Shown here: in pieces, positions 13,289 to 41,161 of the stretch
How positions within the stretch are numbered: the first letter of the stretch is position 1
How the letters are laid out: each line of letters starts with the position of its first letter
IMG/VR virus record: IMGVR_UViG_3300008740_000009
Span: 1-60,300 of that record
Strand: one strand, 5' to 3'
From: a virus
Length of the DNA stretch: 60,300 nt
Program-made: the position numbers and the translations under genes
Notes under the pieces: model-generated
The model's input: only the letters and a program-made list of their open reading frames with translations
Told to the model about the DNA's origin: nothing
Database searches by the model: none

Positions 13289-13651
13289 ATGGATGATGAC
13301 GGAGATAAAACGGCAACAATAATACCCTTCCCAACAAGGAAGGTTGAAACAGAGAGCATGCCTGATAAGATCAGTCTTTCAGAGGGAGACGCGTATGACC
13401 TTATCATTGCGATGTCCTCCATAAACATGGCCACCAAATACCGGGGAGAGTTTGATAGCAACTGCAAGAAAAGCCTGGAGACCGAAAACTTCCCCTGCAC
13501 AGAAAATTGTGGTTGCTATCTCCACATGCTCTCCTCTATGGCATTAGAGGTTATTTTTGATGGACCAAGGAAAGATGAGGCTAGAGACGCACTGCGTCAC
13601 GAACATGAAACGCTAAAAAGAGAAGGGCCTAAAGAGAAGGACGATGAGTAG
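13289..13651 (+). CDS. Hypothetical protein (120 aa)
   Basis: A 120-residue protein containing ATIIPFPTRKV near the N-terminus, a pattern common in phage proteins of unknown role, and four Cys in CTENCGCYLH and nearby that could bind metal. The C-terminal 25 residues are highly charged. It overlaps the next gene by eight bases. Confidence 0.65.
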   Translation: MDDDGDKTATIIPFPTRKVETESMPDKISLSEGDAYDLIIAMSSINMATKYRGEFDSNCKKSLETENFPCTENCGCYLHMLSSMALEVIFDGPRKDEARDALRHEHETLKREGPKEKDDE

Positions 13652-21014: not shown

Positions 21015-21041
21015 GTATTATCAGTTATACTGGTGGACAGT

Positions 21042-21470
21042 ATGTTATCTCATGTTGAAAACGGTCGGATAAAGCACAAGCGGTCCCCCATCGATGGGAC
21101 CGGGAGCTTCAGTGTGCGCGGCCACAAGGCTGGGGAAGTCCTCGGCGTTGCCTTAATAAGAAAGAGCGGTAAGCCCACGGGTGATGTTTATAAGGACTAT
21201 CACCAAACCCTTCTGGGGGATTACTTCAACCACTCACCTGTGGCCAATGTGGGTTTACGGAAATCCGGCAAAAAACTTATTGCCTATGCCACTAAAGATA
21301 TCGCTCCGGGCGAGGAAATGGTAGCTGACTATAGGGAGCCGCTCTCACCTGTAAAAGACGAGGTGACTCCTGAGTGGGACCGAAAGGCGTTGGCTGCTAT
21401 GTCTAAGAAAGCCTCTATGTCTATAAAAAAGTCCATACTTATCGGCGGACTCAGGTTTACGAGGCCCTAA
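21042..21470 (+). CDS. SET-domain protein (putative protein methyltransferase)
   Basis: A 142-residue protein that is almost entirely a SET domain: GTGSFSVRGHKAGEVLG (N-terminal SET strand), DYFNHSPVANVGL (the NHS pseudoknot motif) and DIAPGEEMVADY (the GEExxxDY motif). SET enzymes transfer methyl groups from S-adenosylmethionine, usually to lysines. ATG 21042 is used, though GTG 21033 is possible; no ribosome binding site is seen, and TATACT at 21026-21031 would give an almost leaderless mRNA. The target is unknown. Confidence 0.8.
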   Translation: MLSHVENGRIKHKRSPIDGTGSFSVRGHKAGEVLGVALIRKSGKPTGDVYKDYHQTLLGDYFNHSPVANVGLRKSGKKLIAYATKDIAPGEEMVADYREPLSPVKDEVTPEWDRKALAAMSKKASMSIKKSILIGGLRFTRP

Positions 21471-22989: not shown

Positions 22990-23499
22990 ATGCAAAACAT
23001 TGATTACTTGAACGAAACGTTGGGGTCAGCAACCTCAGCACGAGATTCTTTCGTTGCCAACATGGGAACAGACTACAGTCGAAGCAACCTCGACCGCTTG
23101 CAGGCGCTCCAGTCTGCTGTAAACGAGGCGCAAAGCCGACTTGAATCAGCAACGAACAGCAACGGAACTAATGGTTCTGGTGGTGTTAACGGAGGAGGAA
23201 ACATCTCCTTCGCCGCCCCGTCCACAAGCACAGTCAGCGCCGCTGACATGTGTGTTGTTACGCTTATCCGAAATGGTAAGTCTGACCGTTGCCTTGAAGT
23301 TCGCACTGACTCCACTCTTGGAGACATCGTGAGTACGCTAAATACGCAAGAGGGCGGCTGGGATATTCGCAGCCTCACCTTCAAGCGACGAGTTGGCCCT
23401 GGCCAAACCGCAGACATTACGGACCCGAACAGCACCGTTCTCGGTGAAGGGCCGCATGAGATTTGGGTTGGTAACAAGGTTGCTGGTGGACGACAGTAG
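22990..23499 (+). CDS. Ubiquitin-like beta-grasp protein with Gly-Gly tail
   Basis: A 169-residue protein in three parts: a helical, coiled-coil-like N-terminus (1-55), a Gly/Asn/Ser linker (56-85) and a C-terminal domain (86-165) with the strand-strand-helix-strand order of a beta-grasp fold. It ends VAGGRQ, so Gly166-Gly167 is followed by two removable residues, as in ubiquitin precursors. Its neighbours are E2-like, JAMM-protease and E1-like genes, which fits a conjugated tag matured by the JAMM enzyme. The fold is inferred from pattern and context. A terminator follows the gene. Confidence 0.75.
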   Translation: MQNIDYLNETLGSATSARDSFVANMGTDYSRSNLDRLQALQSAVNEAQSRLESATNSNGTNGSGGVNGGGNISFAAPSTSTVSAADMCVVTLIRNGKSDRCLEVRTDSTLGDIVSTLNTQEGGWDIRSLTFKRRVGPGQTADITDPNSTVLGEGPHEIWVGNKVAGGRQ

Positions 23500-23522
23500 T
23501 CGTTACTAGTCTCCTGACCCAA

Positions 23523-23554
23523 ACTCGTTATACCTGACCAATAATATAACGAGT
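23523..23554 (+). promoter_or_regulatory. 10-bp inverted repeat after the Ubl gene
   Basis: ACTCGTTATA and TATAACGAGT, a perfect 10-bp inverted repeat with a 12-base spacer, between the Ubl stop and the terminator. It could be an operator, an RNA hairpin or a processing site. Confidence 0.5.
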
Positions 23555-23563
23555 AATAAAAGT

Positions 23564-23600
23564 GGCGGGTGTCCCCTTCGGGGGGCATCCGCTATTTTTT
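23564..23600 (+). terminator. Strong TTCG-loop terminator inside the Ubl cassette
   Basis: Stem GCGGGTGTCCCC with GGGGGCATCCGC, loop TTCG, then TATTTTTTT. It lies between the Ubl gene and the E2-like gene; the ribosome binding site of the latter (GTGGAGAAACT) follows at once. Partial read-through would make the tag exceed the enzymes. Confidence 0.85.
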
Positions 23601-23612
23601 TGTGGAGAAACT

Positions 23613-24722
23613 ATGGCATCAACAGCAAAAAACTACGAACTAACTTTTAATGGTGACGACGCTCTGATTGCCAAACAACTTCAGACCATCATCACCGACT
23701 CAGAAAGTCTTGCTTCAAAAGAGCTTATAAAATTGTCTGCCGCGCTAGAAAGAGAGCGTGCCGCAGAACGAATGCACAACAATAAGGTCTCTGCTAGGTC
23801 GGCTATCTATACCCGAGCCCAGCAACGCCTTGCTGCCAAGGAGGCAGAGTACGACCGTGCCAGAGCGAGAACGCGTGCTGCCAGACAAAAGCTTATGGAC
23901 CGAAGTTCAAAGTCTTCTCAGGCAAGAGACCGAGCGGAAAGGTGTGAGCGAGCTATTGCGCAGATAAAAAGGCGCTTGGAGTTGAACGGAGAAATCTACA
24001 CAGAGGATGGTTTCGAAAAAAGAGCGTTGATGATTCGTTTCATTGAGGGTCTCATCGATACGCGTGTCCCAATCAAGTTCTCCACAATCAGTGCAGATGA
24101 GCAAAAACTAACTTGGAGAACTAACGATATCTTCATAAAAGATGGTTTCGGATCTGTTCTCCCACACAACTTTGGTAAATTTGATTGCTCTGTAACTTAC
24201 AACGGTGACCCCGTTCGAGGAAACCGAGTCACTGTATACTGCAAAAGCGTTAACCCGGATGAGGGTAACAGGAGAAACTATCCGCACCCACATCTAAACG
24301 AGCATGGTGCAGCATGCCTAGGCAATATCCAACCCACCCTAATACAAGATATGGGTGTTAAGGATATCGCTAAAGTAATCGAAACGCTCACGGACTTTCT
24401 ACAACATTATAATAGAGAGAACCCGTACGTACACTTATCTGCGTGGTGCCCAAACAGATGGGACAACGCTGTATGTGAGTCAGGGAACCACATCATGGCG
24501 GATTGTGAGTGTCCTAGATGCAACGAATGCGGAACTATCCAAGAACAAGAAGACCTTAGCGGCTGTGGTCACTGCCATAGCTGCTGCATGGTTCATCACG
24601 TTCATCCGATAAACCCGCCAGCATCATATAGAGGAATAAACGGAACACCCTGCATCTCAAGAAACGAGTATGCAGCCCGTTTCGCTCAACAACAAACCAA
24701 TCCAGGAGGAACTAATGACTAA
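23613..24722 (+). CDS. E2-like conjugating enzyme with C-terminal Cys/His-rich module
   Basis: A 369-residue protein. Residues 30-125 form a long Arg/Ala/Glu-rich coiled coil. Residues about 150-270 match an E2/UBC fold ending in YPHPHLNEHGAACLG, where Cys235 sits like the E2 catalytic Cys behind an HPH flap. Residues 298-331 hold CECPRCNEC and CGHCHSCC plus several His, enough for two zinc sites as in a RING or treble-clef module. It would take the activated tag from the E1-like enzyme and pass it to targets. Its end overlaps the JAMM gene by eight bases. Confidence 0.78.
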   Translation: MASTAKNYELTFNGDDALIAKQLQTIITDSESLASKELIKLSAALERERAAERMHNNKVSARSAIYTRAQQRLAAKEAEYDRARARTRAARQKLMDRSSKSSQARDRAERCERAIAQIKRRLELNGEIYTEDGFEKRALMIRFIEGLIDTRVPIKFSTISADEQKLTWRTNDIFIKDGFGSVLPHNFGKFDCSVTYNGDPVRGNRVTVYCKSVNPDEGNRRNYPHPHLNEHGAACLGNIQPTLIQDMGVKDIAKVIETLTDFLQHYNRENPYVHLSAWCPNRWDNAVCESGNHIMADCECPRCNECGTIQEQEDLSGCGHCHSCCMVHHVHPINPPASYRGINGTPCISRNEYAARFAQQQTNPGGTND

Positions 24723-25734
24723 AGTTCTAACAAAGCCAACCGTCCGATTTACACAAAAAGCATATCAACAAATGACAGCATTGACTGATGAGTGCCCAAT
24801 TGAGATATCAGCAATTGGTATTATTGCCACAGATGCTCAACGAAATGAGTGGGGCATTAAAGAGCCTTTCTATGTTCTAGAATTCTATGTTCCAGACCAA
24901 GAGTGCACTGGGGGCAGTACTGTCTTCGATATGGACTCTTATGCAGATGTGTCTTTGGAGCTTAGGGACCAGGGGATAAGTTCAGACCAAATCTGTGTAT
25001 GGTGGCACTCCCATGTAAATATGGATACCGGTCATTCCGGAACAGACGAGAAACAAATTGAAGAATTCAATTTTGATAAGGTCTGTATTAGCGTAATCTC
25101 CAACAAAAAGAGAGACCTCAATGTCCGGGTAGATATGTACAACCCGTTCAGGTTTTCCTTTGAAAAGTGTGGATGGTCTGTTGATCAGGTAAGCATCTTG
25201 GAGGACGGCTGGGCAAAGGAGATGGTTGAAGACCACGTCTCTCGACCCGCGCCTACGCAACTAAATGTTGTCAAACACACAAGAAAGTACACTACCGGTT
25301 CATACACGGGAAAAGTAAACGGCCACCAGAGCTTCTTCGGCCACTGGGACGACGACTACATCGGCTGGGACGGCGGTCATCAAAGCAAAGAAGCTGGAGA
25401 CGACAAAAGCGAAAGCGCTTCGGACGAAGATGACTTGATCGCGAATGTTGAGTACGTAAAAGAGTCTCTGCGGTTGCCCGATGAACTAGAGCTTCTGGCA
25501 GAACTCTACGAAGAAAACATCGTAGATCTTACAGAGGTCATTGAATATCACTCTAAGTGGTACGCAAAAGAAATGAGCACAGAGGAAATTTTGGATGAGT
25601 TGTCTGGACTGTACTACGACGTCGGAAGCAAAAAGGACGACGAAGAACAGGACGATGAAGTCCAGAAAATCCTAGCAGCAGAGTTTGGAGAAGACGACGA
25701 GGATGAAGATGAGCCGGTTGGGGTGGCAGTATGA
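24715..25734 (+). CDS. JAMM/MPN (JAB) metalloprotease
   Basis: A 339-residue protein. The JAMM motif is exact: Glu30 (EISAIG), then His98-Ser-His100 followed by Ser108 and Asp111 (HSHVNMDTGHSGTD). Such enzymes cut isopeptide or peptide bonds after Gly-Gly, so it could mature the Ubl by removing Arg-Gln or deconjugate it. Residues 190-339 are an acidic extension with a Gly/His-rich patch and helices, not part of the protease fold. GGAGGAACTA precedes ATG 24715. It overlaps the E2-like and E1-like genes. Confidence 0.9.
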   Translation: MTKVLTKPTVRFTQKAYQQMTALTDECPIEISAIGIIATDAQRNEWGIKEPFYVLEFYVPDQECTGGSTVFDMDSYADVSLELRDQGISSDQICVWWHSHVNMDTGHSGTDEKQIEEFNFDKVCISVISNKKRDLNVRVDMYNPFRFSFEKCGWSVDQVSILEDGWAKEMVEDHVSRPAPTQLNVVKHTRKYTTGSYTGKVNGHQSFFGHWDDDYIGWDGGHQSKEAGDDKSESASDEDDLIANVEYVKESLRLPDELELLAELYEENIVDLTEVIEYHSKWYAKEMSTEEILDELSGLYYDVGSKKDDEEQDDEVQKILAAEFGEDDEDEDEPVGVAV

Positions 25735-26396
25735 TTGATACCACACGCCAGTCCGGAATTATCCCAGACGAAATCGTACAGAACCGCTCTGTAGCTATTG
25801 TTGGCGCAGGGGCTATTGGGTCCCATGTTGCTGAAGCCTTGTGCAAGATGGGTATTCGAAAGATACGCATCTATGACTTTGACGATGTCGAGTCTCACAA
25901 CGTAGCCAATCAAGGCTATTTCGTGACCGAAATTGGGTATAAGAAATGTGAAGCCTTGCAGCAACGGCTATCGGAAGGAACCGGTGCGGAAATCATCGCT
26001 GAAGACAGGAAGTTCGAGGGGGGTGAAACCTTCCAAGAAGACTATGTAATCTCAGCAGTGGACAATATGTCTGCTCGCTCAGATATCTGGTCAAGCTTTC
26101 TTGTAAGCAGCGGAGCAAAGTATTTCCTGGACGGTCGTATGGGAGCGCGTGAAGGATCTGTCTTCTATGTAGACAAATCAAATGCAAACAGCGTTTCCTA
26201 CTACGACCAAAGTCTGTTTCCTGACGAAGAAGCGGTGCAGCTACCGTGCACAGAAAAAAGCACAATTTTCTGCGCATATGGCATTTCAAGTATTATTTGT
26301 GCTCTCGTTGCCAAAAGTATTATCGGTGATGAGATAAATTATTCAGTGGATGTAGACTTCCTCAACTTCCACTTAAATCGCAATTCTGCGAGCTAG
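25731..26396 (+). CDS. ThiF/E1-like adenylating enzyme
   Basis: A 221-residue E1/ThiF/MoeB-fold protein: nucleotide loop VGAGAIGSHV (residues 24-33), IYDFDDVESHN (acidic, metal and ATP), then SAVDNMSAR. In place of the usual NxxRQ arginine finger it has NVANQ. PCTEKSTIFC (Cys173 and Cys181) offers candidate thioester cysteines. It is shorter than cellular E1s and lacks a ubiquitin-fold domain, as in minimal bacterial enzymes. It would adenylate the Ubl C-terminus. The ATG overlaps the JAMM stop (ATGA). Confidence 0.88.
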   Translation: MIDTTRQSGIIPDEIVQNRSVAIVGAGAIGSHVAEALCKMGIRKIRIYDFDDVESHNVANQGYFVTEIGYKKCEALQQRLSEGTGAEIIAEDRKFEGGETFQEDYVISAVDNMSARSDIWSSFLVSSGAKYFLDGRMGAREGSVFYVDKSNANSVSYYDQSLFPDEEAVQLPCTEKSTIFCAYGISSIICALVAKSIIGDEINYSVDVDFLNFHLNRNSAS

Positions 26397-26427: not shown

Positions 26428-27249
26428 ATGGCTACCAACGATAACAACCAAGGTCAGAAGACTGGCCCAAACAAGTCCAAATGGAAGCTTCCCGGTATGG
26501 GGCAAGCTATGCTGAATCTGATTGACCCGGAGCGGGCACCAGATGTTATTACTATTACTTATAATAACGTTGTCACGCGGATGCTCCGTGTGGTGGACCC
26601 CGATACCAAGGCGGTTTACTACTCAGGTGTTCCAGAGTACAGCGATGGGAAGCGGACTTGGCAATGCAAGTTCGGGTTCACTCTGTCCTGCGATGGTTAC
26701 TTCGACGGCTCTGCCGCGTTGAACTTCATCACCAGGGGTGGGTGGAAGCGTGGTTCCAAGAAGCCTACCAAGGCTGAAAAGGCCCGAGCCCGTGAGGAGT
26801 TCATCTGTGCGTTTCTTTCGTGTGCTATCAAGTACCGAGACGCCAAAGAGAAGCCTCACAACTTCGAAGCCCTGAAGGACTTGGTTGCAAGCGGCACCGG
26901 CCTCTCTGTGGAGGAGGGGGTGATGGATGAGACCACCACAAAGGCGTTGGGCCTGATGGGTGTTCCATTCTATCTTTCCGACCTCGCGGAAAAGCGGGGC
27001 CTGAAATTGGTTGTTGATGTTCCTGAATACATCGCTCAGTTTGTTCAGCCCACCTACGCCAAGTGCGTTGAGGGTGCCTGGGACAGCGAGAGTAGTCAGG
27101 TAGCCATTACATCTGCTCTGTCAACTGCACAGACCTCTTTGATGAGGGAGCATGGGTTCAGGTTTAAGAAGGTTCGTCAGTATGCCGTGAAGGCCGCTGC
27201 ACCGAAGCATTCCAAGACCCCAAGCAACAATGTGGTTGAAGGTCAGTAA
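26428..27249 (+). CDS. Unknown protein downstream of the E1-like gene (273 aa)
   Basis: A 273-residue basic protein with no recognised domain. The N-terminal 20 residues are polar and probably disordered; the centre (TWQCKFGFTLSCDGYF) looks beta-rich and the second half helical. AGAGGAGATGTGTT precedes the ATG. It is the last gene before a strong terminator and so ends the transcript that begins with the E2-like gene, making it a candidate partner or substrate of the conjugation cassette. That role is inference from position. Confidence 0.65.
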   Translation: MATNDNNQGQKTGPNKSKWKLPGMGQAMLNLIDPERAPDVITITYNNVVTRMLRVVDPDTKAVYYSGVPEYSDGKRTWQCKFGFTLSCDGYFDGSAALNFITRGGWKRGSKKPTKAEKARAREEFICAFLSCAIKYRDAKEKPHNFEALKDLVASGTGLSVEEGVMDETTTKALGLMGVPFYLSDLAEKRGLKLVVDVPEYIAQFVQPTYAKCVEGAWDSESSQVAITSALSTAQTSLMREHGFRFKKVRQYAVKAAAPKHSKTPSNNVVEGQ

Positions 27250-27396: not shown

Positions 27397-27430
27397 TGGT
27401 ATAAGTGTGTTGACAACCAAATGTCTGTCA
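27397..27430 (+). promoter_or_regulatory. TGGTATAAG promoter with operator over the start point
   Basis: The -10 element TGGTATAAG is at 27397-27405. A third operator, TGACAA-N8-CTGTCA, lies at 27411-27430, covering the expected transcription start. Binding there should repress the gene at 27463. Confidence 0.7.
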
Positions 27431-27462
27431 CCCTAACACACTTATTCCCCGAAGGAGGTTTA

Positions 27463-28533
27463 ATGGCAGCACATGAGCTTTTGAACATCCGGGCTGAACC
27501 TCACATCCAAGTGGTTTGCCATCCTACCTCAAATACCAGTCGCTGGTCTAGAAATGATTTCATAGACCCTGTAGATGGTGCTCCCTGGGATGAGCAAGAT
27601 TTAACACCAATTGAACGTGGGCACGTATACCTTTGGAAAGAGGACAACGAAGCCTGGGTACATATCTATATGCCTTTTAGAATAATGGATGCTGAAACAG
27701 CTACCCTTCTGAAGGGATGTAAAACATACCGAAGTACACCACCCTTCGTAACAGGTAAACAATATGCGCTAGACAAGTTAGCCAGAAACCCTAAAAGCTG
27801 CTTACATACATTTAAGTTTACTAGAGAGTTTCTGACTACCTTTAGAAGTCGTATAGCCAGTCTTGGTGGGTTACTTGAGAAAGATGAAGTAGATGTAACT
27901 TCACTCATAGGTGGTATCCAAGAAGCTAGAGCAACCGTTCAGGAAACATCCAACGGTATTGCACTGCTAAGAGAAAAGTATTGTTCAGCATCAGGGGACC
28001 CTGTTGACTCAAATGAAAAACTACAGGAAGCCCTAACAGCATTCTCCAATTCAAGGGAGAGGCTGGTATCCATAGGAGAAGAAAGAGTAATCCTAGGGAA
28101 GATGCTTGGAAGATTAAAGTTAGAGGCTGGTAGAAAGACAGCCTATATAGAAGCGAATGAGTGGTTTACGACTCTAACAACTGAAATGGACACCCTAAGA
28201 AGGACAGACTTTGACAGGTTAGAGAGAGAAGCTATTCACAAGCATAGAAGAGACTCTGGAGAGATTGCTACTACTGCCAGACCCTCAACCTTAATGGCTC
28301 TGGGAACAGAGCTTCAGAACCTGAAGCAGTACTATCCCAGTCTACAAAAGTTGACGGCAGTCTCTGACCAAATCTGGTTAGAGCTACCAGGGATTAAGAT
28401 ACAACTGCTACCAGATGGTTCTGTAACGGTTGTTGGGGACCCTGCGGCATTAAAACCTTTCATTGATGGATCTACATCAGTAAAGGCGCAGGGTAGGAGG
28501 AGAAGAGCAATCTATACAAAAGGAGATGAGTAA
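27463..28533 (+). CDS. Unknown coiled-coil protein flanked by operators (356 aa)
   Basis: A 356-residue protein of unknown function. Residues 1-120 are mixed alpha/beta with several His and Trp, 120-270 form charged helices, and the end is strongly basic (RRRRAIY). GAAGGAGGTTTA fixes ATG 27463. It is bracketed by the TGACAA-N8-TTGTCA operators, with one over its promoter, so it is tightly regulated, perhaps by itself or by the ParB-like protein downstream. Codons here look more A/T-rich than in the adjoining genes, a possible sign of separate acquisition. Confidence 0.7.
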   Translation: MAAHELLNIRAEPHIQVVCHPTSNTSRWSRNDFIDPVDGAPWDEQDLTPIERGHVYLWKEDNEAWVHIYMPFRIMDAETATLLKGCKTYRSTPPFVTGKQYALDKLARNPKSCLHTFKFTREFLTTFRSRIASLGGLLEKDEVDVTSLIGGIQEARATVQETSNGIALLREKYCSASGDPVDSNEKLQEALTAFSNSRERLVSIGEERVILGKMLGRLKLEAGRKTAYIEANEWFTTLTTEMDTLRRTDFDRLEREAIHKHRRDSGEIATTARPSTLMALGTELQNLKQYYPSLQKLTAVSDQIWLELPGIKIQLLPDGSVTVVGDPAALKPFIDGSTSVKAQGRRRRAIYTKGDE

Positions 28534-28803: not shown

Positions 28804-29724
28804 ATGACGCAGCGTCAACTACGTCTGAAGAAGTTTAATTTTGACGACATTGAGAGAAACGCAGACGGCTTCCAGAATTGTCGGAAGGCTAATGCATTCG
28901 AGGTCGCAGAGCTACGCGACTCTATTAAGCGGGACGGCCTTCTGAACCCGCCCATCGTCCGAGTATATAAGGACGAGGATGGGGCTGAGAGGCTGGTTCT
29001 GCTCGCAGGTTATCGTCGTTATCAAGCTATTTCTGAGGAGCGTGCTGCTCTAAAGGAGGCGAACGAGGATACAAGTAAATTCTATGACCAAATCCAGTGC
29101 TCGGTATTTACCGGGTCCTTGGAAGAGGCTCTCGCGCTAAACCTGAGTGAAAATATGCAGCGAAGTTCGCTGAATCACGCAGACCAGTGTGAGGCGATTG
29201 CCAAGCTCGTTGATCGAGTTGGGCATCAGGAAGAGGTGGCAGCTATGCTATCTGTTTCACAGCCTCAGGTAAGTGTCATGACCTCGACCTACCGAGGTTT
29301 GTGCAAGGAGGCTTTTGAAGCTCTGCGACACGGGAACATCCGACTTACCCAGGCTAAGAAGCTGTCACGGGTATTGAAGGAAGATGGAACTCCTGATGTT
29401 GCTAAGCAGACAGAGATTCTTGAGCAGATCTTGACTACGGAAGACAAGGGAATCCCTGCAACCGAGCAGCGGAAGCGAGCAAAGACCTACAGGTCTAAGC
29501 GAGAAGTTGAAGAACTTCGTACTCTCTTGGCGACCGCTGATGCTGACGGTGTTGATGAAGAACATCGTCGTTCCTTGGCCCAAGTAATCCGTTGGTACTT
29601 TTGTGAGCTAGATACGGAAGATATGTTGTATCGAGTTGACGAGGCCGATGGTGTGGTCGTTGAGGAAGAAGCCCCAGCACCCGTGAAGAAAAAGCGTCGA
29701 AAGAAGATTCGAGTAGGCGAATAA
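28804..29724 (+). CDS. ParB/KorB-like DNA-binding protein
   Basis: A 306-residue protein with the ParB N-terminal domain (ELRDSIKRDGLLNPPIV, then LLAGYRRYQA like the CTP-binding GxRR motif, then LNLSENMQRSSL) and a central helix-turn-helix (EVAAMLSVSQPQVSVM). The C-terminal part is helical and ends in a Lys/Arg-rich tail. ParB-family proteins bind inverted repeats and can spread or silence. The operators at 27.3-28.7 kb are its obvious candidate sites. AAGGAGAAACTA precedes the ATG. Confidence 0.85.
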   Translation: MTQRQLRLKKFNFDDIERNADGFQNCRKANAFEVAELRDSIKRDGLLNPPIVRVYKDEDGAERLVLLAGYRRYQAISEERAALKEANEDTSKFYDQIQCSVFTGSLEEALALNLSENMQRSSLNHADQCEAIAKLVDRVGHQEEVAAMLSVSQPQVSVMTSTYRGLCKEAFEALRHGNIRLTQAKKLSRVLKEDGTPDVAKQTEILEQILTTEDKGIPATEQRKRAKTYRSKREVEELRTLLATADADGVDEEHRRSLAQVIRWYFCELDTEDMLYRVDEADGVVVEEEAPAPVKKKRRKKIRVGE

Positions 29725-31302
29725 ATGAGGTCGGTCGAAGAACTCGACCTTCTGATTCGTGCTGCCTACCCGGCCATCTTTGTAGTTTCCTACGAAGAAG
29801 GTCGGGTAGAGCAGTGCTTATCAGGAATAATCGAGAGACGGAACAACAAGCAGGGGTTGAATTCCAAATTACATGTTTGGTCAATCACTGAAGGTTGCCG
29901 TTGCGGTGAAAATGTTCTTTCAGAACTCGACGGACCTCTAGATGTTCTGGATTATATCCAGGGGTATAGAGAATCCGGCGTATTCCTATTACGAGACTTT
30001 GCTAATTTTCTTAACACCGGACCAGAGTATTTGGTTCAGCGTAAGCTGAGAGATACCCTTTCTAATCTAGGCCCAGGAATCAACATCGTTATTGTTGACT
30101 CTGAGCTTGAGATCCCGCCTCGGTTAGAGAAGCTTATTGCAGTAGTTGATTTTGATCTACCAAGTATTCAAGAGCTAAACGGGACAGCACATCTTTTGAT
30201 GGCCGACTGTGCAGCCACGGCAACCTTGCAAGAGGACGCTAGAAACAACATGGTGGACATTGGGTCAAACGCAGCACTCGGACTAACATTGGCTGAAGCC
30301 GAAAACGTCTTTGCGAAGTCTCTAGCCCATGCGAGCATGCTCGACCCCCAAATAATCATTGAGGAGAAAAAGCACATCATCCGAAAGAGTGGGGTGCTCC
30401 AGTTCTACGATGTTGACAGAGACATGAACTCTGTTGGGGGGCTTGAGAATCTGAAGAAGTGGCTGCACCAACGGGGCGGCTCGTTCAGTGAAGAAGCACG
30501 AGAGTACGGACTACCTAACCCACGCGGAGTTCTTATTGTAGGAATCCCAGGAACAGGTAAAAGCCTTGTCTCAAAGTGCATCGGACATGATTGGGGTATG
30601 CCCGTCTTAAGGATGGATGTAGGCTCGCTATTTGGCTCGCTAGTTGGTCAATCAGAAGCGAACATGCGAAAAGCCCTTAAAACTGCTGAGGCCTTAGCGC
30701 CTTGTGTCTTGTGGATTGACGAGCTTGAGAAAAGCCTAGGAAGTTCTACAGGAGTCTCCGATAGTGGGACGACCGCAAGGGTCTTCGGTTCCTTCCTGAG
30801 TTGGATGCAAGAAAAGACATCTCCGGTGTTCGTCGTTGCAACAGCAAATGATGTATCGGCACTTCCACCAGAGATGTTGCGTAAAGGTCGCTTTGATGAG
30901 CTGTTTTTCGTAGATCTTCCGGGGGAAGAAGACCGGGAGTCTATTATCAATATCCATCTTGGTAGATACGGTAGAGACCCTTCCGTTTTAACTGGGGATT
31001 ACCCCGGACATGACACTGGAATGGCCGCACTAGTCGATGCCACAGATGGTTTCTCTGGCGCTGAGCTAGAGCAAATTATTATTGATGGTATGTATAAAGC
31101 TTTTCCTGAAGGAAGAGATCCTACAGCAGACGACTACCTATCAGCCGCTGTTAACACAGTTCCACTTTCCGCCACTATGGAGACTCAAATTGAGGGCCTG
31201 CGTAAATGGGCGGCTGGTCGAGCTATAATGGCAAACGACAACTCCCAAAAGGAGATTCGTAAACCATCGAGTAAAAAGACCAGAAGGAGAATCATGAGTT
31301 GA
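29725..31302 (+). CDS. Ycf46-type AAA+ ATPase
   Basis: A 525-residue AAA+ protein. The N-terminal 220 residues resemble the Ycf46 pre-AAA region. The ATPase domain has Walker A GIPGTGKS, Walker B VLWIDELEKSL and the second region of homology LPPEMLRKGRFDELFFVDLPG with its arginine. Relatives occur in plastids, cyanobacteria and phages; proposed roles involve protein remodelling. The start overlaps the ParB-like stop (TAAATG). It is followed directly by the RecA-like gene. Confidence 0.85.
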   Translation: MRSVEELDLLIRAAYPAIFVVSYEEGRVEQCLSGIIERRNNKQGLNSKLHVWSITEGCRCGENVLSELDGPLDVLDYIQGYRESGVFLLRDFANFLNTGPEYLVQRKLRDTLSNLGPGINIVIVDSELEIPPRLEKLIAVVDFDLPSIQELNGTAHLLMADCAATATLQEDARNNMVDIGSNAALGLTLAEAENVFAKSLAHASMLDPQIIIEEKKHIIRKSGVLQFYDVDRDMNSVGGLENLKKWLHQRGGSFSEEAREYGLPNPRGVLIVGIPGTGKSLVSKCIGHDWGMPVLRMDVGSLFGSLVGQSEANMRKALKTAEALAPCVLWIDELEKSLGSSTGVSDSGTTARVFGSFLSWMQEKTSPVFVVATANDVSALPPEMLRKGRFDELFFVDLPGEEDRESIINIHLGRYGRDPSVLTGDYPGHDTGMAALVDATDGFSGAELEQIIIDGMYKAFPEGRDPTADDYLSAAVNTVPLSATMETQIEGLRKWAAGRAIMANDNSQKEIRKPSSKKTRRRIMS

Positions 31303-32165
31303 AGAAGTTTCGCACTGGGGTATGCCAGTTAGATGAGGCACTGTTTGGGGGGTTCCCGATTGGTGTGTCTGAGATTGTGGGTGGTGATGCTTGCGGCAAA
31401 ACCTCCCTATGCCTTAGTGTGATGCGTGAAGCTTCAATTGATGGTCACCCGACTGCTCTTGTCTACACAGAAGGCTTGCCCGACAAAGTATATTTTAGTG
31501 ACGCTGGTCCTACGGACTGCGTAGTCGTGTCACCAAGGTTTGGGGAGGCAGCTATTGAAGCTGCTTTCTCTGCCTTGGTGCACGGCGCTAAAGTTGTCGT
31601 TATCGACAGCATTTCCAACCTAGAAACATTTACTGAATTGAATTACGCTGTAGGCTCAAGAGAGCCTTATGCACAGAAAAAGCTTGTTTTTCATGGCCTC
31701 TCCACCCTACGTGAAGAAGCTATTGCGAAGGAAGCGCTCGTGCTTGTTACAAGCCAGCTTCGGGTTCCAATTGGTGCTCTGGTGCCGACACCTGTCTCAT
31801 CCTTTGAGGGTGTACTTAATAATATATGTGACACCAGGGTTCGTAATCGGAGGGACCAGATAAGAACAGAATATGGGGAATTGGCTTACGCAAAGATAGA
31901 ATTTTCTGTGTTTAGATCGTTGAGCGCACCGCCAGGAAGCAACGCATATGGATTCATATTTAACCAGAAAGGTTTTGACCGGAACTTTGAGCTTCTGAGG
32001 GCTCTGATTGCTAGTGACACACTGCGTCAATCTGGGGCTTACTTTGTTGATCCTGAGGGAAATAACTTAGGTCCAGGGTACTACGAAGCCGCTGAGCAAG
32101 TCGGCCAAAATTTTAACAGTTACTGGAGGAGACTCTATGGAAGTCAAAGTGATAGTGAACCCTGA
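31299..32165 (+). CDS. RecA-like ATPase
   Basis: A 288-residue RecA-fold protein: LFGGFPIGVSEIVGGDACGKTSL contains the RecA-type entry to Walker A (GGDACGKTS), then VVVIDSISNLE as Walker B and LVLVTSQLR as the strand with the sensor Gln. TTG is the start, overlapping the upstream stop (TTGA), with AAGGAG before it. It is shorter than bacterial RecA and lacks its long C-terminal domain. It could act in recombination or as a partner ATPase for the neighbouring AAA protein. Confidence 0.8.
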   Translation: MKKFRTGVCQLDEALFGGFPIGVSEIVGGDACGKTSLCLSVMREASIDGHPTALVYTEGLPDKVYFSDAGPTDCVVVSPRFGEAAIEAAFSALVHGAKVVVIDSISNLETFTELNYAVGSREPYAQKKLVFHGLSTLREEAIAKEALVLVTSQLRVPIGALVPTPVSSFEGVLNNICDTRVRNRRDQIRTEYGELAYAKIEFSVFRSLSAPPGSNAYGFIFNQKGFDRNFELLRALIASDTLRQSGAYFVDPEGNNLGPGYYEAAEQVGQNFNSYWRRLYGSQSDSEP

Positions 32166-32322: not shown

Positions 32323-32594
32323 TGGAAGGCATCGCCCTGATACAAACGGGCGACACCGAGTATGAACGTACTAAAGCACACGAAGGTGCACGGGTCTGGA
32401 TAAGAGTTACGAGTCCTGACGGTGAAACATCAGCCGACATAGGAATCCTCACGAATAGTGAGGGCATCTCTATTGACGTTTGGGCCCCAGATAGTGACGG
32501 GTGCGCAAGCCCTGATGATGGACCAATCATAGCCCCTTGGCTGCTGTGGTCTGATGTTGAGGAGGCCCAAGATGAGGATAGCGGGGATAACTAG
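32322..32594 (+). CDS. Hypothetical protein (90 aa)
   Basis: A 90-residue acidic protein, beta-rich in the centre, ending in an acidic tail. Unrecognised. It lies between the DUF2997 and radical SAM genes and overlaps each, so it is probably part of the same module. Confidence 0.65.
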   Translation: MEGIALIQTGDTEYERTKAHEGARVWIRVTSPDGETSADIGILTNSEGISIDVWAPDSDGCASPDDGPIIAPWLLWSDVEEAQDEDSGDN

Positions 32595-33186
32595 AGACAG
32601 TTATGTCAACGGTCCTGGGCGTCGTAATGTATTACACGTTCAGGGATGCACCATAGGCTGTCCTGGGTGCTTCAACAAACACACATGGCCAGAGTCCGGG
32701 GGTGAGGAGATCTCTCGTCTAGACGCCGCCAGTGCGCTCCTAGCCGGTAACCCAGACGGGGTCACGATCTCTGGTGGAGAGCCTATGGAGCAGTGGTTGG
32801 ACATCAAGCTGATGATTAAAAGCATGTTGACTTTAAACCGGGGTCCTTCAGATGAGTTCAAGGAACTATCAGTAGTAATATTTACTGGGTGGACAAAGGA
32901 ACGGCTAGAGAAATCTGGCTATCTGGAAGACATGCGGATGCCGTACTTTATGAATGAAACCCTTGTTTCGATGGTCATTTCTGGGCCATACGTAGAAAAG
33001 TTGGCGTGCAACAAGCCTCTAATTTCCTCATCCAACCAAGAGATTATATACATAAATCCTGCTTATGAGCAGACTGATTTAACCAATCTGCCAAGAGTAG
33101 AAGTCTCGTGTGGGGAAGACGGCCTTGTTAAGATAACAGGGCTCCCAGACAAGAGTACCTTGGACGAATTAAGGAGGGTGCAATGA
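32572..33186 (+). CDS. Radical SAM protein, NrdG-like
   Basis: A 204-residue radical SAM enzyme: CTIGCPGCFN holds the CxxxCxxC that binds the 4Fe-4S cluster, followed by the GGEP motif in TISGGEPMEQW. Size and sequence are closest to activating enzymes of the NrdG type. No class III reductase is visible and the phage has a class II enzyme, so the substrate is probably something else, perhaps a protein of this module. GAGGAGGCCCAAG precedes ATG 32572. Confidence 0.83.
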   Translation: MRIAGITRDSYVNGPGRRNVLHVQGCTIGCPGCFNKHTWPESGGEEISRLDAASALLAGNPDGVTISGGEPMEQWLDIKLMIKSMLTLNRGPSDEFKELSVVIFTGWTKERLEKSGYLEDMRMPYFMNETLVSMVISGPYVEKLACNKPLISSSNQEIIYINPAYEQTDLTNLPRVEVSCGEDGLVKITGLPDKSTLDELRRVQ

Positions 33187-36684: not shown

Positions 36685-39600
36685 TTATACGACGATTGTA
36701 ATCTTGATTCTATTGGCCGGGTAAAATGGCGTAATAGAAATCGTTGCTAAAATTTCATCCGGGCTATTAGCGGACTGCTCTAGAGAATCTAGAGTAGCTC
36801 TCGCCACCACGGAGCCTGCCACACTAGCCAAAGCCGCTTGCGCTGTGAGCGAAACAGTCTCTAGCAATTGTTGTGTGATGTTGTTTCTTCCGATGTAACG
36901 ACGAAGCTGGGCTCGGATGAGCTTGGCCACGAAATCAACCGCTTTAAGAATAGACAACTCACGCGACTTCAGAGAAGACACGTCCGTTGTAAGCTGATGG
37001 CGTGAAGCCATTGGGGCTCCAGGGGTATCCTGAATGACCCAGTAGATACCGCCAGCCGCAGCAGTTGCCATTTGATTCTCGCTGAAAATATCGCTTGAAC
37101 CAACAGGTCTTGTGAAGCCAACCATCGGCAAATTGGTAAACGGTTGAGATGGGTTCTGCTGGCCAATCATGCCAGCAATACCAGCACACAAGAAGTGCCC
37201 CGGAACCAATACCTCTAGACCATTTACGGTGGTCCCAACCTGCTCGGGTTGAACCATAACCATTCTTCGATTCTGAAACCCGGTAGGTCCACCAGCAATC
37301 TCTGCAAGAGTCTCACAAGCCTTGAGCTTCCCAGCGGTTCCGCTCATGTCAATTGCCGCCTGACGAATCTTAAGGGTGCAAAGCTCCCCATCGGATTCAA
37401 AAGTAGACAGATTCGCAAGAGCGTCAGTACCCGTTCGGTAATAACTATCATCATTACCGGAAGTAGCTGGACCAAAGAGGCCAGGAACGTAAACATCGCC
37501 AGTTTCAATAACTACCGTGTCCGCTGAGGGCGTCCCGGTAATCAAGTACCTAAATGCATCACCTTCGCGGTCTACGTAGATACCGTCCGAGGGGAGGTAT
37601 GAGGAACCATTCCCGCCACCAAGGACACTACCGCCAGCATTTGTCTTTCCATCAATAGCCATCGGGATATTGAATGCAGCCGCAGCAGCCTCGTCAGCGA
37701 TGGTGAGTTCAAACTTACCGCCACCAATGTCAGAGAGCTTGAAGTCTGCCGAACCAACCAAGGAAGATCCTTCTTCGGTTGGGAGGGAAGGACAGCATAA
37801 GAACATTCGCTCATGCTTGGCCAGAGGCTCAGACGAATCCGATACGTGAAGACTAAACTTCTTGAAGACTTCCATGTCGTCCGTCATCGGAGCAAGAGCA
37901 TAGACTTCGTTGAGGGCCAAGAAATCAAGGGCCTCCGCGTATGCCTCTAGCGTTCCGTTTGGAGCGTCTGGAGTCACGTTACTAACACCGAACGCGCTAA
38001 CGTTAATGTTAGAGGTATTCAAGAATGCGAGGTAGAGACCGAAAGCCAACGGGTTAGAAGGATCAATAGGACCAATGAGGCTTTCAACCTCGGAGGCACT
38101 AGAGAACACCAAAAGACCTGGGTTAGCAGTATCGGCTGTAACATCCTTACGGAGAGCCTTTACCTGAGCATAAACAGGAGCACTCGACCCCGCTGCCGCG
38201 ATGCCTTGAGCATTTCGGTTAACACCGGGCTTGATTGAGTAGACCTGGGTTAGATCATTAAACTCTGCTTCTGGTTCAGGTCTAATGTTGTTACCAGCGT
38301 CATCGGTGGTTCCACCAATAAGGTTCTCTGCAACAACATACCAACCATCAAGATGTACGCCCTTTTCAGCGGCGAATTCAGAGATGACCAATTCCGCTCC
38401 AGGGAATCCGCCAGCAATTGCCCAGTTGTTAACTTGAACAACTCGACCTAGGACGGAGCCCTTATTCCAGAGCATATCACTCGTCATAACCCGATTGCTT
38501 CGACCGTGGAAAAGACGCGAGGTATACGAAGGAGAAGACTCTCCGAATGCACAGGGCCAACTTCTTGTGTAAGAAATCGTTAGCGCAGAAGCGGGCGTAA
38601 GAGCAAAAGAGCATGGGAGAGCGTTTGCAGGAGCGCCGTTTTGGTTCTCACCAGCAAACGTAACAGCCACGTCCCCCGTAGAGTATTCAGCCAGACTTAG
38701 ATCAAAACCACGGTTAAGCGGCGTTCCAAGCTGTGCACCACCAAGGAAGTACTCAGACATGACTCCAGCGGAAGTTGTGTCAGGAGTGTTCGCTGGGCAA
38801 GGACCAGTTAGGTCACTGGTTGAAGACTTCACCTGGAAGGAGTTGCCTGCGCCATCATCCTTAATAATAAGGGTGGTTGCTTCAGTCACTGCCGTGACAG
38901 CCGTTCCCGTGGTCATGCCTGCACCCAACAGGGCAGACAATTCAGCGTTGGCTGTTTCAAATGAACAATCTTCTCCAGCAGCGTGGGTAGTAGAGGTTCT
39001 GGTAATACAGATCCTACCGTTTGCTTCGTGACAAATAACTTCGCCACCAGTGTTTCCTGCCGCCTGAAGCTGGGTGTCAATCTCTACGATCAAGTCAGCA
39101 ACGGTTGCGCTCCCACCGGAGACATTTCCAGCAAGGTCTAGGTTGATTACATCGTTACCCGTTTGGGTTGTAATCGTACAAGGTACTGCGGCTCCCCAAG
39201 TCATACCGGCAGAAGCTGCAAGAACATCTGCGTCACTAACTTGGCCAGAGCGGAGAGACGCCAATGCAAGCCCATCGACCATCATGGTCAAGGAGCCATT
39301 CTGGATGGCTGTCTCACCAAGTGATTGGGCAAGAAGGTTGTAGTCGTTTCCGATACCACCCGATACCAAGAATCTACGAGAGGCGTGAGCCTGTGGGGGC
39401 GTAGCCGCATTTGCGAGTGCCACCTGCGCAATGGTGTCAGACCCACTAGCAAACCCACTCCACAGTCTTTCAATGACTGCTGCATTCGGAGAGGAAAGCT
39501 CGATTGTGGAGTCGTGACCATTTTGAGACACAGTGTTAATCCGCAAAGCACTAATCGTCTCGCCCAAGGCGTTAACGACGTTTTCATTAGTGCATCCACC

Positions 39601-41139
39601 GATACCGGCTAGAGCGTTATTGATAGTGGTGTTTACCTGTGCGCCACCCGTAAGAGTGATTGCCAAGGGGACTGCACCATCAATAGATACATTGAGGATT
39701 TCACCGCCTAGGCCCAAAGCATCTGCGGTAAGGTTTCCTACCTCGACAGCGCCACAAACCCAAGCCATCCGGTCGTCGTCGCCACTAGCAGGCCCACCGG
39801 CATTGTTGCCGTCTACCCCAAAGTTGATTGGGTCGGCTCCACCGTGAAGGTTCAAGGTGTGAGCACCGCCAACCCACGGAGCGGGAGCCTGACCAGCAGC
39901 GAAGCCTCTAAAGGATTCTGCATCTGGTCCGGGCGCATAAGTGATAATAAGGTCAGAGGCAATCGAGGCCGTAAATGCCGGGTCCTCTAACGCAGCGCCC
40001 AATTGAGCAAACGTATGTGTCTCATCACAATTGATTGTCAATGTGCCAGCAGGGTTCCAAGCAACGGTCAAATTCGCGTTCTCAGCGAAGACAACGTTAA
40101 TGGCATTACCAGCCGCACCAACCCAGTTCCCGATATCTGCGGGGGTTTGGGTGGCAAGGTATGTTTGGAGCCCAAGAGCTTCAACATGCAAGAAGTTTTC
40201 ACCACTCACATCAGGCCAAGCAACAAGACTGGACGGGTATTGTGCGCTCAGGCTGTGCGCCAAAGGAATAGTGATGCTGGCAGGGGTTCCTGGGTTGCAC
40301 AATGTGTTTGTCTTAGAGCCAGTTCCAGGCTTGCCCCAAAGGACAGTCTTACCATTAGCAATCACAGGCTGGTGAGCACTGGAGGTGGCGTTACCGCCGC
40401 CATCCGTGGACTCGCCAAGAGTAAATGCATTCCAATTGGTTGCACTATCGGTCGATAGCTCGGACAGACTATTAGCAAAGAATCTATAAACAGTAATATC
40501 GTCGCCTGCCCAGACGCACTCATCAGCGCTAGTCATGGGGGAGGGCATGCTCGTGTAAGGGATATTGTAGGCGACGTTCGTGTAGTTCGTCTGTCCCGTA
40601 ATATTAATCCCCTCAAGAGCGTTCATCTGAACGATATCATCGGGTCCTGCGCCATAAGCGGAAGACGCTGCGCCAGCAGGGTGCGCCTTTAGCAGTACAG
40701 CAGCGGTTGGTCCCTTAGCGTTCGTTCTGAACACAAGCCTGCTTGGTTGAGCAACACCGTCTACTACGCCGGGAGTGATTTCAGCGATAGCACCAGTAAG
40801 TTGCTTATTGATCGTGTTGACGACCAAGGCAAAGCTCATGGAGAAGTCACCATTAACTGCCGCAGGCATGCTAATGATCTGATCTGCGCCATTATTAACG
40901 GAAATAATGAACTCACGACCGCGAAGATTCAGCGGTTCGTTCAGATCAGCAGTGCTGACTGCACGGGCAGCAGTTGATACTGATGCCTGTGGGTTAAGAG
41001 CCCCGTCTTCATCGATTGGGTCAACAATCTGAAAGCAGGGCCCAACGATGCAAGGCACCAGTGCTGGTGTCAAGACGGTGGGCGATTCTACGATGATTTC
41101 CTGGGAAATCTCTACGCCGGGTCGTGGAAGCGTTGCCAT
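36685..41139 (-). CDS. Very large tail sheath protein (1484 aa)
   Basis: The N-terminus (PRPGVEISQEIIVESP) and the last 100 residues (SRELSILKAVDFVAKLIRAQ; ITPFYPANRIKITIVV) are typical of contractile tail sheath subunits. At 1484 residues it is two to three times usual length: the middle carries hundreds of residues of Gly/Ala/Asn-rich beta domains with repeated strand-helix units. These would project from the tail surface and might bind host or glycans. ATG 41139 has CAGGAG before it. It establishes myovirus morphology. Confidence 0.85.
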   Translation of the reverse strand: MATLPRPGVEISQEIIVESPTVLTPALVPCIVGPCFQIVDPIDEDGALNPQASVSTAARAVSTADLNEPLNLRGREFIISVNNGADQIISMPAAVNGDFSMSFALVVNTINKQLTGAIAEITPGVVDGVAQPSRLVFRTNAKGPTAAVLLKAHPAGAASSAYGAGPDDIVQMNALEGINITGQTNYTNVAYNIPYTSMPSPMTSADECVWAGDDITVYRFFANSLSELSTDSATNWNAFTLGESTDGGGNATSSAHQPVIANGKTVLWGKPGTGSKTNTLCNPGTPASITIPLAHSLSAQYPSSLVAWPDVSGENFLHVEALGLQTYLATQTPADIGNWVGAAGNAINVVFAENANLTVAWNPAGTLTINCDETHTFAQLGAALEDPAFTASIASDLIITYAPGPDAESFRGFAAGQAPAPWVGGAHTLNLHGGADPINFGVDGNNAGGPASGDDDRMAWVCGAVEVGNLTADALGLGGEILNVSIDGAVPLAITLTGGAQVNTTINNALAGIGGCTNENVVNALGETISALRINTVSQNGHDSTIELSSPNAAVIERLWSGFASGSDTIAQVALANAATPPQAHASRRFLVSGGIGNDYNLLAQSLGETAIQNGSLTMMVDGLALASLRSGQVSDADVLAASAGMTWGAAVPCTITTQTGNDVINLDLAGNVSGGSATVADLIVEIDTQLQAAGNTGGEVICHEANGRICITRTSTTHAAGEDCSFETANAELSALLGAGMTTGTAVTAVTEATTLIIKDDGAGNSFQVKSSTSDLTGPCPANTPDTTSAGVMSEYFLGGAQLGTPLNRGFDLSLAEYSTGDVAVTFAGENQNGAPANALPCSFALTPASALTISYTRSWPCAFGESSPSYTSRLFHGRSNRVMTSDMLWNKGSVLGRVVQVNNWAIAGGFPGAELVISEFAAEKGVHLDGWYVVAENLIGGTTDDAGNNIRPEPEAEFNDLTQVYSIKPGVNRNAQGIAAAGSSAPVYAQVKALRKDVTADTANPGLLVFSSASEVESLIGPIDPSNPLAFGLYLAFLNTSNINVSAFGVSNVTPDAPNGTLEAYAEALDFLALNEVYALAPMTDDMEVFKKFSLHVSDSSEPLAKHERMFLCCPSLPTEEGSSLVGSADFKLSDIGGGKFELTIADEAAAAAFNIPMAIDGKTNAGGSVLGGGNGSSYLPSDGIYVDREGDAFRYLITGTPSADTVVIETGDVYVPGLFGPATSGNDDSYYRTGTDALANLSTFESDGELCTLKIRQAAIDMSGTAGKLKACETLAEIAGGPTGFQNRRMVMVQPEQVGTTVNGLEVLVPGHFLCAGIAGMIGQQNPSQPFTNLPMVGFTRPVGSSDIFSENQMATAAAGGIYWVIQDTPGAPMASRHQLTTDVSSLKSRELSILKAVDFVAKLIRAQLRRYIGRNNITQQLLETVSLTAQAALASVAGSVVARATLDSLEQSANSPDEILATISITPFYPANRIKITIVV

Positions 41140-41161
41140 ATTTATCACTCCTGTTGGGGCT

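Follow-up and report, generated by a model that had tools for sequence, protein, structure and literature searches.

In bacteria, operons for the conjugation of ubiquitin-like (Ubl) proteins have been described on plasmids and in antiphage defence. Among the plasmid-borne ones, the PRTRC systems consist of ParB, E, C (the Ubl), F, B (the E2), A (the JAB protease) and ThiF. In the available text of Iyer, Burroughs and Aravind (2006; PMC1779556), operon type 6d brings together a Ubl with a C-terminal Gly, a JAB, an E1-like and an E2-like protein, and lambda-type tail assembly is described with TAPI (a Ubl) and TAPK (a JAB), no E1 or E2 being named there. Here we analyze a 60,300-nt stretch (the window) from a 60.3 kb IMG/VR virus contig, record IMGVR_UViG_3300008740_000009, in which four neighbouring genes on the plus strand encode, in order, a Ubl precursor, an E2-like protein, a JAMM metalloprotease and an E1, the same four core activities as in PRTRC. 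The presence of this four-gene set in a phage is confirmed. Its reading as a Ubl-conjugation cassette, put forward in an earlier note on this DNA, is partly supported, and we consider it probable that the set is a phage-encoded, reversible module for attaching a Ubl to proteins.

The window belongs to a tailed phage, with PHROG matches to tail sheath, head maturation protease, terminase, helicase and ribonucleotide reductase, and to a major head protein at E 1e-4 only; since its terminase relatives share <30% identity in the best 15 of 157 records listed, no host is named. The four open reading frames (ORFs) lie where the earlier note had placed them, and its statement that the last three overlap by 4–8 bases holds: ATG 24715 of the JAMM gene, which is preceded by AGGAGG and is likely its start, gives an overlap of 8 bases with the E2 gene (stop at 24722), and the E1 start at 25731 an overlap of 4 with the JAMM gene (stop at 25734). 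Promoter and terminator scans gave results near chance level. The assignment of the fourth protein as a ThiF/E1-like enzyme is borne out by Pfam ThiF at E 1.3e-22, and the best PDB relative of its profile is UBA5 (E 6.8e-21). It carries the elements of an adenylation site, GxGxxG with Asp49, Asn57, Lys72 and Asp111, as well as a candidate catalytic Cys173, a Cys kept in 9 of 9 sequences. The third protein contains the predicted HxH-x7-SxxD motif, HSHVNMDTGHSGTD, and an upstream Glu as well. Numbered from 24670, the catalytic residues are Glu45, His113, His115, Ser123 and Asp126, and all five are the same throughout the nine sequences of alignment A4. The JAMM profile matches archaeal JAMM1 (E 1e-3) and Rpn11 (E 1.1e-3); Pfam Prok-JAB scores 13.4 bits against a cut-off of 25 (E 0.073). 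The motif alone is no evidence, because 200 base shuffles of the window yield a mean of 0.36 six-frame matches to it. The same virus's 181 kb contig holds a second, degenerate JAMM-like ORF of 111 residues (G001:C1:171022-171357, minus strand; locus L047 4523-4858), which has WWHSHVNM in common with the first and Ile at the place of the catalytic Ser.

The first protein comprises an N-terminal helical part (residues 2–59), a low-confidence linker (57–83) and a C-terminal beta-grasp (84–167), and its C-terminus, ...KVAGGRQ, has the expected Gly-Gly-Arg-Gln end (Gly166-Gly167-Arg-Gln). The AlphaFold model, made from a 4-sequence alignment, has a mean predicted local distance difference test score (pLDDT) of 74.7, with ten-residue means of 79–89 across residues 91–160, and residues 87–162 form two strands, a helix and three strands. 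The C-terminal domain, on whose fold the earlier note had staked its reading, thus predicts as a beta-grasp with Gly-Gly past the last strand, as in a Ubl modifier. Foldseek returned 16 PDB chains at E ≤ 1e-3, ten of them ubiquitin, SUMO or Ubl-domain entries and the remaining six tubulin cofactor (three), DIX (one) and PI3K (two); a bacterial Ubl–deubiquitinase complex (8tyx, E 1.4e-3) was also among the fold matches. The VIA comparison gave Z 9.4 for an 84-residue molybdopterin synthase chain, which we take to be MoaD, and 9.1 for ubiquitin, which is a tie, and in several rows residue 167 lies opposite ubiquitin Gly76. The Gly-Gly is invariant in the window and in three divergent viruses (4/4), and what follows it differs between them: RQ, NA, F or a 21-residue tail. 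The protein was placed by no single-sequence family scan (Pfam, NCBIfam, PHROGs, PADLOC), and its sequence profile found no Ubl among the PDB matches listed; weak matches to CBM_6, EzrA, FlhF and LmuB in the Ubl and E2 family scans were put down to chance or coiled coil. The predicted structure places the protein as a match to the ubiquitin/SUMO/MoaD-like fold.

The second protein has a long N-terminal helix, an E2-like core with HPH-x7-CL and a Cys/His-rich C-terminus. The candidate catalytic Cys235 of the earlier note is present when counted from the first ATG, codon 18 of the ORF, and is Cys252 in GTG-start numbering, which we use below. HPH and Cys are kept in the window and all three divergent viruses (4/4), spaced as HPH-x7-C in the window, L027 and L028 and as HPH-x8-C in L006. 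In an alignment of ten relatives (A7), HPH..CxG shows no variation at its Pro, second His, Cys and Gly, with the Cys kept in 10/10 and a longer spacing in the phage PhiXhv-15; the candidate catalytic Cys thus stands about eight residues past the place of the HPN motif. The 92 residues that follow the core in the window protein include 11 Cys and 6 His, compared with 10 and 4 in 93 in L006, 13 and 6 in 100 in L027, and 3 and 3 in 85 in L028. This C-terminus may be a zinc module or a built-in E3, possibly of RING type. It gives a weak GATA-finger match where the model has pLDDT <50; we do not claim a GATA-finger identity, the whole-chain E of 4e-4 resting on two repeats and the best single repeat reaching 0.42.

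The fold statistics of this protein, and several observations on its partners, weigh against the conjugation reading. Foldseek against the PDB returned E2s or E2-complex chains in its top 17 rows, with a best E of 0.011 and none at 0.001. In VIA, 46 of 50 rows were E2s or E2 complexes at Z 5.1–6.2, all below the secure level, as Z <8 may mean a common arrangement, and the top three rows were THO-complex chains (Z 6.3, root-mean-square deviation 23). The ten-relative profile listed 35 PDB sequences at E ≤ 5, of which 34 were E2s with HPH..C paired to HPN..C, at a best E of 0.26; UQ_con was matched by one of the ten members (E 0.008). The E2 model has a mean pLDDT of 61, most of residues 161–280 lying at ~80 with dips, and the HPN Asn is replaced by His in 10/10 relatives. 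The full-length protein had no E2 match in Pfam, NCBIfam, PHROGs or PADLOC, the four-member profile found no E2 among the PDB matches listed, and the model matched nothing among viral structures at E ≤ 0.001. We regard the E2 identity as supported by predicted fold and motif, with modest statistics, and as less sure than the Ubl match. On the side of the partners, the GG end of the Ubl model partly falls below pLDDT 50 (residues 167–169), the NxxRQ motif of the E1 reads NVANQ, the Arg being absent, and no separate E3 gene was identified. The earlier description of the cassette as complete is thus unproven.

The set recurs well beyond this contig. Contigs of 181 kb and 89 kb carry the window region, with compared stretches 100% identical in DNA across window positions 13562–41299. 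Three divergent viruses, on contigs of 178, 173 and 156 kb, keep the order Ubl-E2-JAMM-E1-orf-orf-ParB-AAA-RecA, with identities to the window of 76, 63 and 43% for the Ubl, 54, 45 and 32% for the E2, 61, 53 and 50% for the JAMM protein, and 87, 76 and 60% for the E1. The four reading frames are intact in the window and in each divergent virus, except that a contig end truncates one JAMM gene, and third codon positions differ most and second positions least in 12 of 12 gene-by-virus comparisons, as in coding-type divergence. The ThiF match, the gene order in three divergent viruses, the invariant catalytic residues, the third-position divergence and the two predicted folds together put the set beyond chance. 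An identical terminal portion of the JAMM protein is encoded at either end of the 178 kb contig, which suggests that this genome is complete, circular or terminally redundant. A search of four cassette-bearing genomes for tyrosine integrases (PF00589) gave no match; this is in line with the lytic life that the earlier note had ascribed to the phage, and is no proof of it.

Table 1. Genes of the four-gene set and of the conserved series that follows it (window positions)
Feature	Length (aa)	Coordinates	Strand	Basis and remarks
Ubl precursor	169	22990..23499	+	ORF, Gly-Gly conservation, predicted fold
E2-like protein		23613..24722	+	Motif, predicted fold; ATG start, ORF open from GTG 23562
JAMM/JAB metalloprotease		24715..25734	+	Motif, profile match; ORF open from 24670
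Minimal E1/ThiF-like adenylyltransferase	221	25731..26396	+	Pfam match, motifs
Conserved gene without credible family match	273	26428..27249	+	Kept in three divergent viruses
Conserved gene without credible family match	370	27421..28533	+	Kept in three divergent viruses
ParB-like protein		28804..29724	+	ParB_N E 6.2e-6, just above cut-off
AAA+ ATPase		29725..31302	+	phrog_8638; AAA E 1.7e-28; CDC48/PAN/FtsH-like
RecA-like recombinase	288	31299..32165	+	tigrfam_recA E 1.1e-19, below its cut-off

The genes that follow the set (Table 1) form a series of replication type. The four cassette-bearing genomes gave no ParA-type (AAA_31, PF13614) match, so the ParB-like gene is perhaps not part of a classical partition system. 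The AAA family has relatives in 117 phage records at E ≤ 1e-10, 31 of them named Mycobacterium, and a relative contig, G006, which may be incomplete, has the AAA gene and no match to the E1 (E ≤ 0.01) or to the JAMM (E ≤ 1); AAA gene and Ubl set are not bound to occur together. Three further genes of the window were noted. A SET-domain protein at 21033–21470 (plus strand), ~1.5 kb before the cassette (PF00856 E 1.6e-6, above cut-off; relative at L006 6414-6845), is a possible protein methyltransferase. Shortly past the RecA-like gene, 32554–33186 (plus strand) encodes a 4Fe-4S single-cluster/radical-SAM protein (Fer4_12 E 7.2e-20). The minus-strand gene at 36685–41148 encodes a 1487-residue protein whose last ~220 residues match tail sheath; the whole protein has no Pfam match at E ≤ 0.05.

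Nor is the set as singular as the earlier note had implied: other phage groups, viral contigs, plasmids and bacterial metagenome-assembled genome (MAG) contigs carry relatives. A tblastn search with the E1 gave matches in 84 of 50,697 phage records; in the best 60 of these 84, identity to the window is 26–36% and the public annotation is mostly thiamine biosynthesis or hypothetical. Related phage genes are labelled "thiamine biosynthesis protein", "metalloprotease", "E1 enzyme family protein" or hypothetical. We examined the gene neighbourhoods of nine E1-bearing phage loci and of MT835544, found via its JAMM gene, which has a 78-residue candidate Ubl. In crAss001, cr128, a bajarodcaudo virus and FpV4, a Ubl-position gene, a gene for an HSH..CxG protein, a JAMM-motif gene and the E1 stand in order; from DAC17, cr106 and Dulem virus 41, the aligned genes were the E2-position one (all three) and the Ubl-position one (DAC17 and Dulem virus 41). 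The E2-position proteins of this crAss/FpV4 type keep HSH..CxG in 7/7, and the Ubl-position proteins have, past a Ubl-like N-terminal part, an invariant K-x3-SG and then a C-terminal extension (6/6). From its sequence, the K-x3-SG in L041 1289-1966 and its relatives in crAss-like phages and FpV4 is a possible processing site. Between window-type and crAss-type E2 profiles there is a weak match (E 0.00097, probability 22%), and the two types of Ubl profile give no support to each other (E 0.041, probability 1%), a further point on the negative side; because profile matches are absent or weak, the case for homology of the crAss Ubl and E2 depends on their position and motifs and on the E1 and JAMM that both types have.

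Two jumbo phages of Xanthomonas and Erwinia, PhiXhv-15 and Ep032, encode a 141-residue Ubl-like protein ending ..KASGG, exactly at GG, an E2 with HPH..CLG, and an E1. PhiXhv-15, the only one of the two searched whole, has no JAMM profile match in its 228 kb. Its E2-like protein (L040 2310-4988) has 892 residues, with 20 Cys in the last 130 and 10 in the first 60. Twelve viral contigs (L012–L023) carry an E1 relative, and all except L019 also gave a JAMM match; in the four examined (L012, L015, L018 and L023), a candidate Ubl of 73–78 residues ending KGN lies past the E1. A scan of the genome collection yielded 51 loci, and around the best 17 we looked for neighbouring genes by their motifs. 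In L060 and L061 the order is Ubl, E2, JAMM, E1, and L062 has all four genes with the Ubl-like gene past the E1. L062 has a JAMM gene though its Ubl-like protein ends exactly in GG, which also counts against the conjugation reading; a rule linking JAMM genes to Ubls with residues past the GG fails here, so that tail and JAMM do not correspond perfectly. L066 has an E2, a JAMM-like gene and an E1, plus a protein read as multi-Ubl; because it lies near an ORF read as trmD, it is possibly chromosomal, and the other genome-collection loci may be phage or mobile elements. A 76-residue ORF ending GGKF in L067 and L068 was dropped as a Ubl candidate, its sequence not being Ubl-like.

The Arg loss divides the E1 family. 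All 18 phage E1s and all 17 close MAG relatives lack the NxxRQ Arg, which 9/9 plasmid, MoeB and ThiF rows and 20/20 further MAG rows keep. A 64-row tree, which took in 37 of the 51 genome loci and left out 14, splits the 35 Arg-less rows and L078 from the other 28 (PRTRC, MoeB, ThiF and further MAG rows) with support 99/94; L078, an archaeal row that has the Arg, falls among the Arg-less E1s on a very long branch. The phage-specific split of an initial 27-row tree (96/92) was dropped, as the larger tree groups 17 MAG E1s with the Arg-less ones; the group is therefore not phage-only. An Arg-less E1 and an HPH-type E2 would show how far such enzymes can vary.

We propose that the Ubl is made as a precursor, from which the JAMM protease would remove the residues past Gly-Gly. 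The small E1 would then adenylate the Gly C-terminus and pass the Ubl, probably via Cys173, to Cys252 of the E2, which, perhaps helped by its Cys-rich tail, would attach it to target proteins; the JAMM protease could also take the Ubl off again. This scheme of trimming, activation, thioester formation, attachment and removal follows from what is established for these protein families, and from the observed gene order, motifs, conservation and predicted folds we infer its chemical steps, its targets and its role. The likeliest targets would be phage DNA replication and recombination proteins, because ParB, AAA and RecA genes accompany the set here and primase, uracil-DNA glycosylase or topoisomerase genes do so elsewhere; this link is guilt by association, which tells against it. 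In crAss001, cr128, cr106, the bajarodcaudo virus and Dulem virus 41, primase and uracil-DNA glycosylase genes flank the set; it lies beside toprim and uracil-DNA glycosylase genes in FpV4, and beside DNA topoisomerase genes in PhiXhv-15. A tentative and rather doubtful extension is that several phage lineages, namely the window-type viruses (156–181 kb contigs), the crAss-like and Flavobacterium phages, the Xanthomonas/Erwinia jumbo phages and the L012–L023 group, encode a distinct Ubl-conjugation lineage that tags proteins of replication and recombination, as a phage equivalent of SUMO/PCNA modification; its marks would be an Arg-less E1 and, in some of the lineages, an HPH-type E2 with a built-in zinc module. 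If so, the virus rather than the host would run the modifier, from a conserved place among replication-type genes. The cultured relatives crAss001 (on gut Bacteroides) and Flavobacterium phage FpV4 make phage Ubl conjugates testable.

The main rivals are counter-defence and a sulfur-carrier role. Counter-defence names a role and can go together with conjugation chemistry: the phage Ubl machinery would compete with a host antiphage Ubl system (CBASS Cap2/Cap3 or Bil), its JAMM protease would reverse the host's conjugation, or phage proteins would be capped to hide them. Antiphage Ubl systems exist, PADLOC E1-E2 defence models match the window E1 (best E 1.7e-15), and the same virus has the further, degenerate JAMM at another site; a similar logic is proposed, in the available text of PMC12660748, for the many JAMM proteins of Borgs. 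A deconjugase, however, would not need a full E1-E2-Ubl set, and the fixed place among replication-type genes, in the window-type viruses and in the five other phages with flanking primase and uracil-DNA glycosylase genes, is unlike a variable anti-defence island. We therefore think this role unlikely.

Alternatively, the E1 could convert the Ubl via an acyl-adenylate to a thiocarboxylate, with the JAMM protease trimming the tail, to supply sulfur for biosynthesis. JAMM trimming of a short tail past GG is known from the QbsD/QbsE and Mec+/CysO sulfur carriers, and the tails RQ, NA and F of the Ubl would suit it, as would the tie of ubiquitin with the presumed MoaD chain as top structural match, the ThiF-type models that match the E1, and a Myxococcales MAG relative with a small Ubl-like protein ending GGAR. 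The E2-like gene with its kept HPH..C site, however, is unneeded by sulfur carriers, and no rhodanese, cysteine desulfurase, or thiazole or molybdopterin synthase model was listed for the six neighbouring proteins scanned, which makes a sulfur carrier quite unlikely. That the conjugated Ubl brings targets to the downstream AAA+ ATPase for unfolding is improbable: the AAA gene follows the set in the window and all three divergent viruses, and CDC48, PAN and FtsH are its closest curated models, yet its family is widespread (with no Mycobacterium among the names covering 81 of the 84 E1-bearing records) and occurs in G006, possibly incomplete, apart from any E1 or JAMM match. A degenerate remnant without activity, as the lost E1 Arg, the replaced HPN Asn and the largely lost Cys-rich E2 tail of L028 might suggest, is hardly credible with the genes open, bar the JAMM gene cut by a contig end, the other catalytic residues kept and third-position divergence highest in every comparison.

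Returning to the favoured conjugation module, its kind is already known (PRTRC, type 6d), and phage-borne E1-E2-Ubl sets are without a description that we found in the searched literature: no report turned up in open-access sources, and the available text of a jumbo phage survey (PMC7824862), of a crAss-like genome paper (PMC7886860), and of PMC5512222, PMC12660748, PMC7159879, PMC11354881 and PMC1779556 mentions none. The PRTRC core order Ubl..E2-JAB-E1 with ParB nearby is also that of the window. However, the window E1 scores 67.8 bits on the PRTRC ThiF model (cut-off 144.75) and its ParB 45.1 bits on PRTRC_parB (cut-off 278.6), and Prok_Ub and Prok-E2_D, both matched by a Polaromonas PRTRC operon used as control, do not match the window Ubl and E2. 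PRTRC Ubls keep GxKG (6/6) rather than GG, PRTRC E2s have no HPH ahead of the Cys (five aligned), and PRTRC E1s keep the NxxRQ Arg and branch apart. Because it fails the PRTRC cut-offs and branches apart in the E1 trees, we do not file the window set there, although it would work like PRTRC. Type 6d shares the operon content of a Ubl with C-terminal Gly, JAB, E1-like and E2-like proteins; in the available text of PMC1779556, however, its E2s rely on a downstream His in place of the missing upstream one, whereas the window HPH lies upstream, and its table row names bacteria. TAPI and TAPK likewise pair a phage Ubl with a JAB, but in a tail module, whereas the window E1-E2 set lies away from tail genes.

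The sets of crAss001, cr128, the bajarodcaudo virus and FpV4 share the Ubl-E2-JAMM-E1 order of positions with the window, and PhiXhv-15 and Ep032 share Ubl-E2-E1; the E1s of the crAss-like, Flavobacterium and Xanthomonas/Erwinia phages have all lost the NxxRQ Arg, as in the window. The crAss-type E2-position protein differs in having HSH..CxG, and its Ubl in being extended, compared with HPH..C and a short tail here. CBASS Cap2/Cap3, Bil and related operons follow an E1-E2-JAB logic like that of the window, and Cap2 chains match the window E1 profile. The PADLOC E1-E2 defence models span ~430–780 positions, of which the window E1 matches the E1 part only; unlike in these antiphage systems, the window E1 and E2 are separate genes, set in a phage series of replication type.

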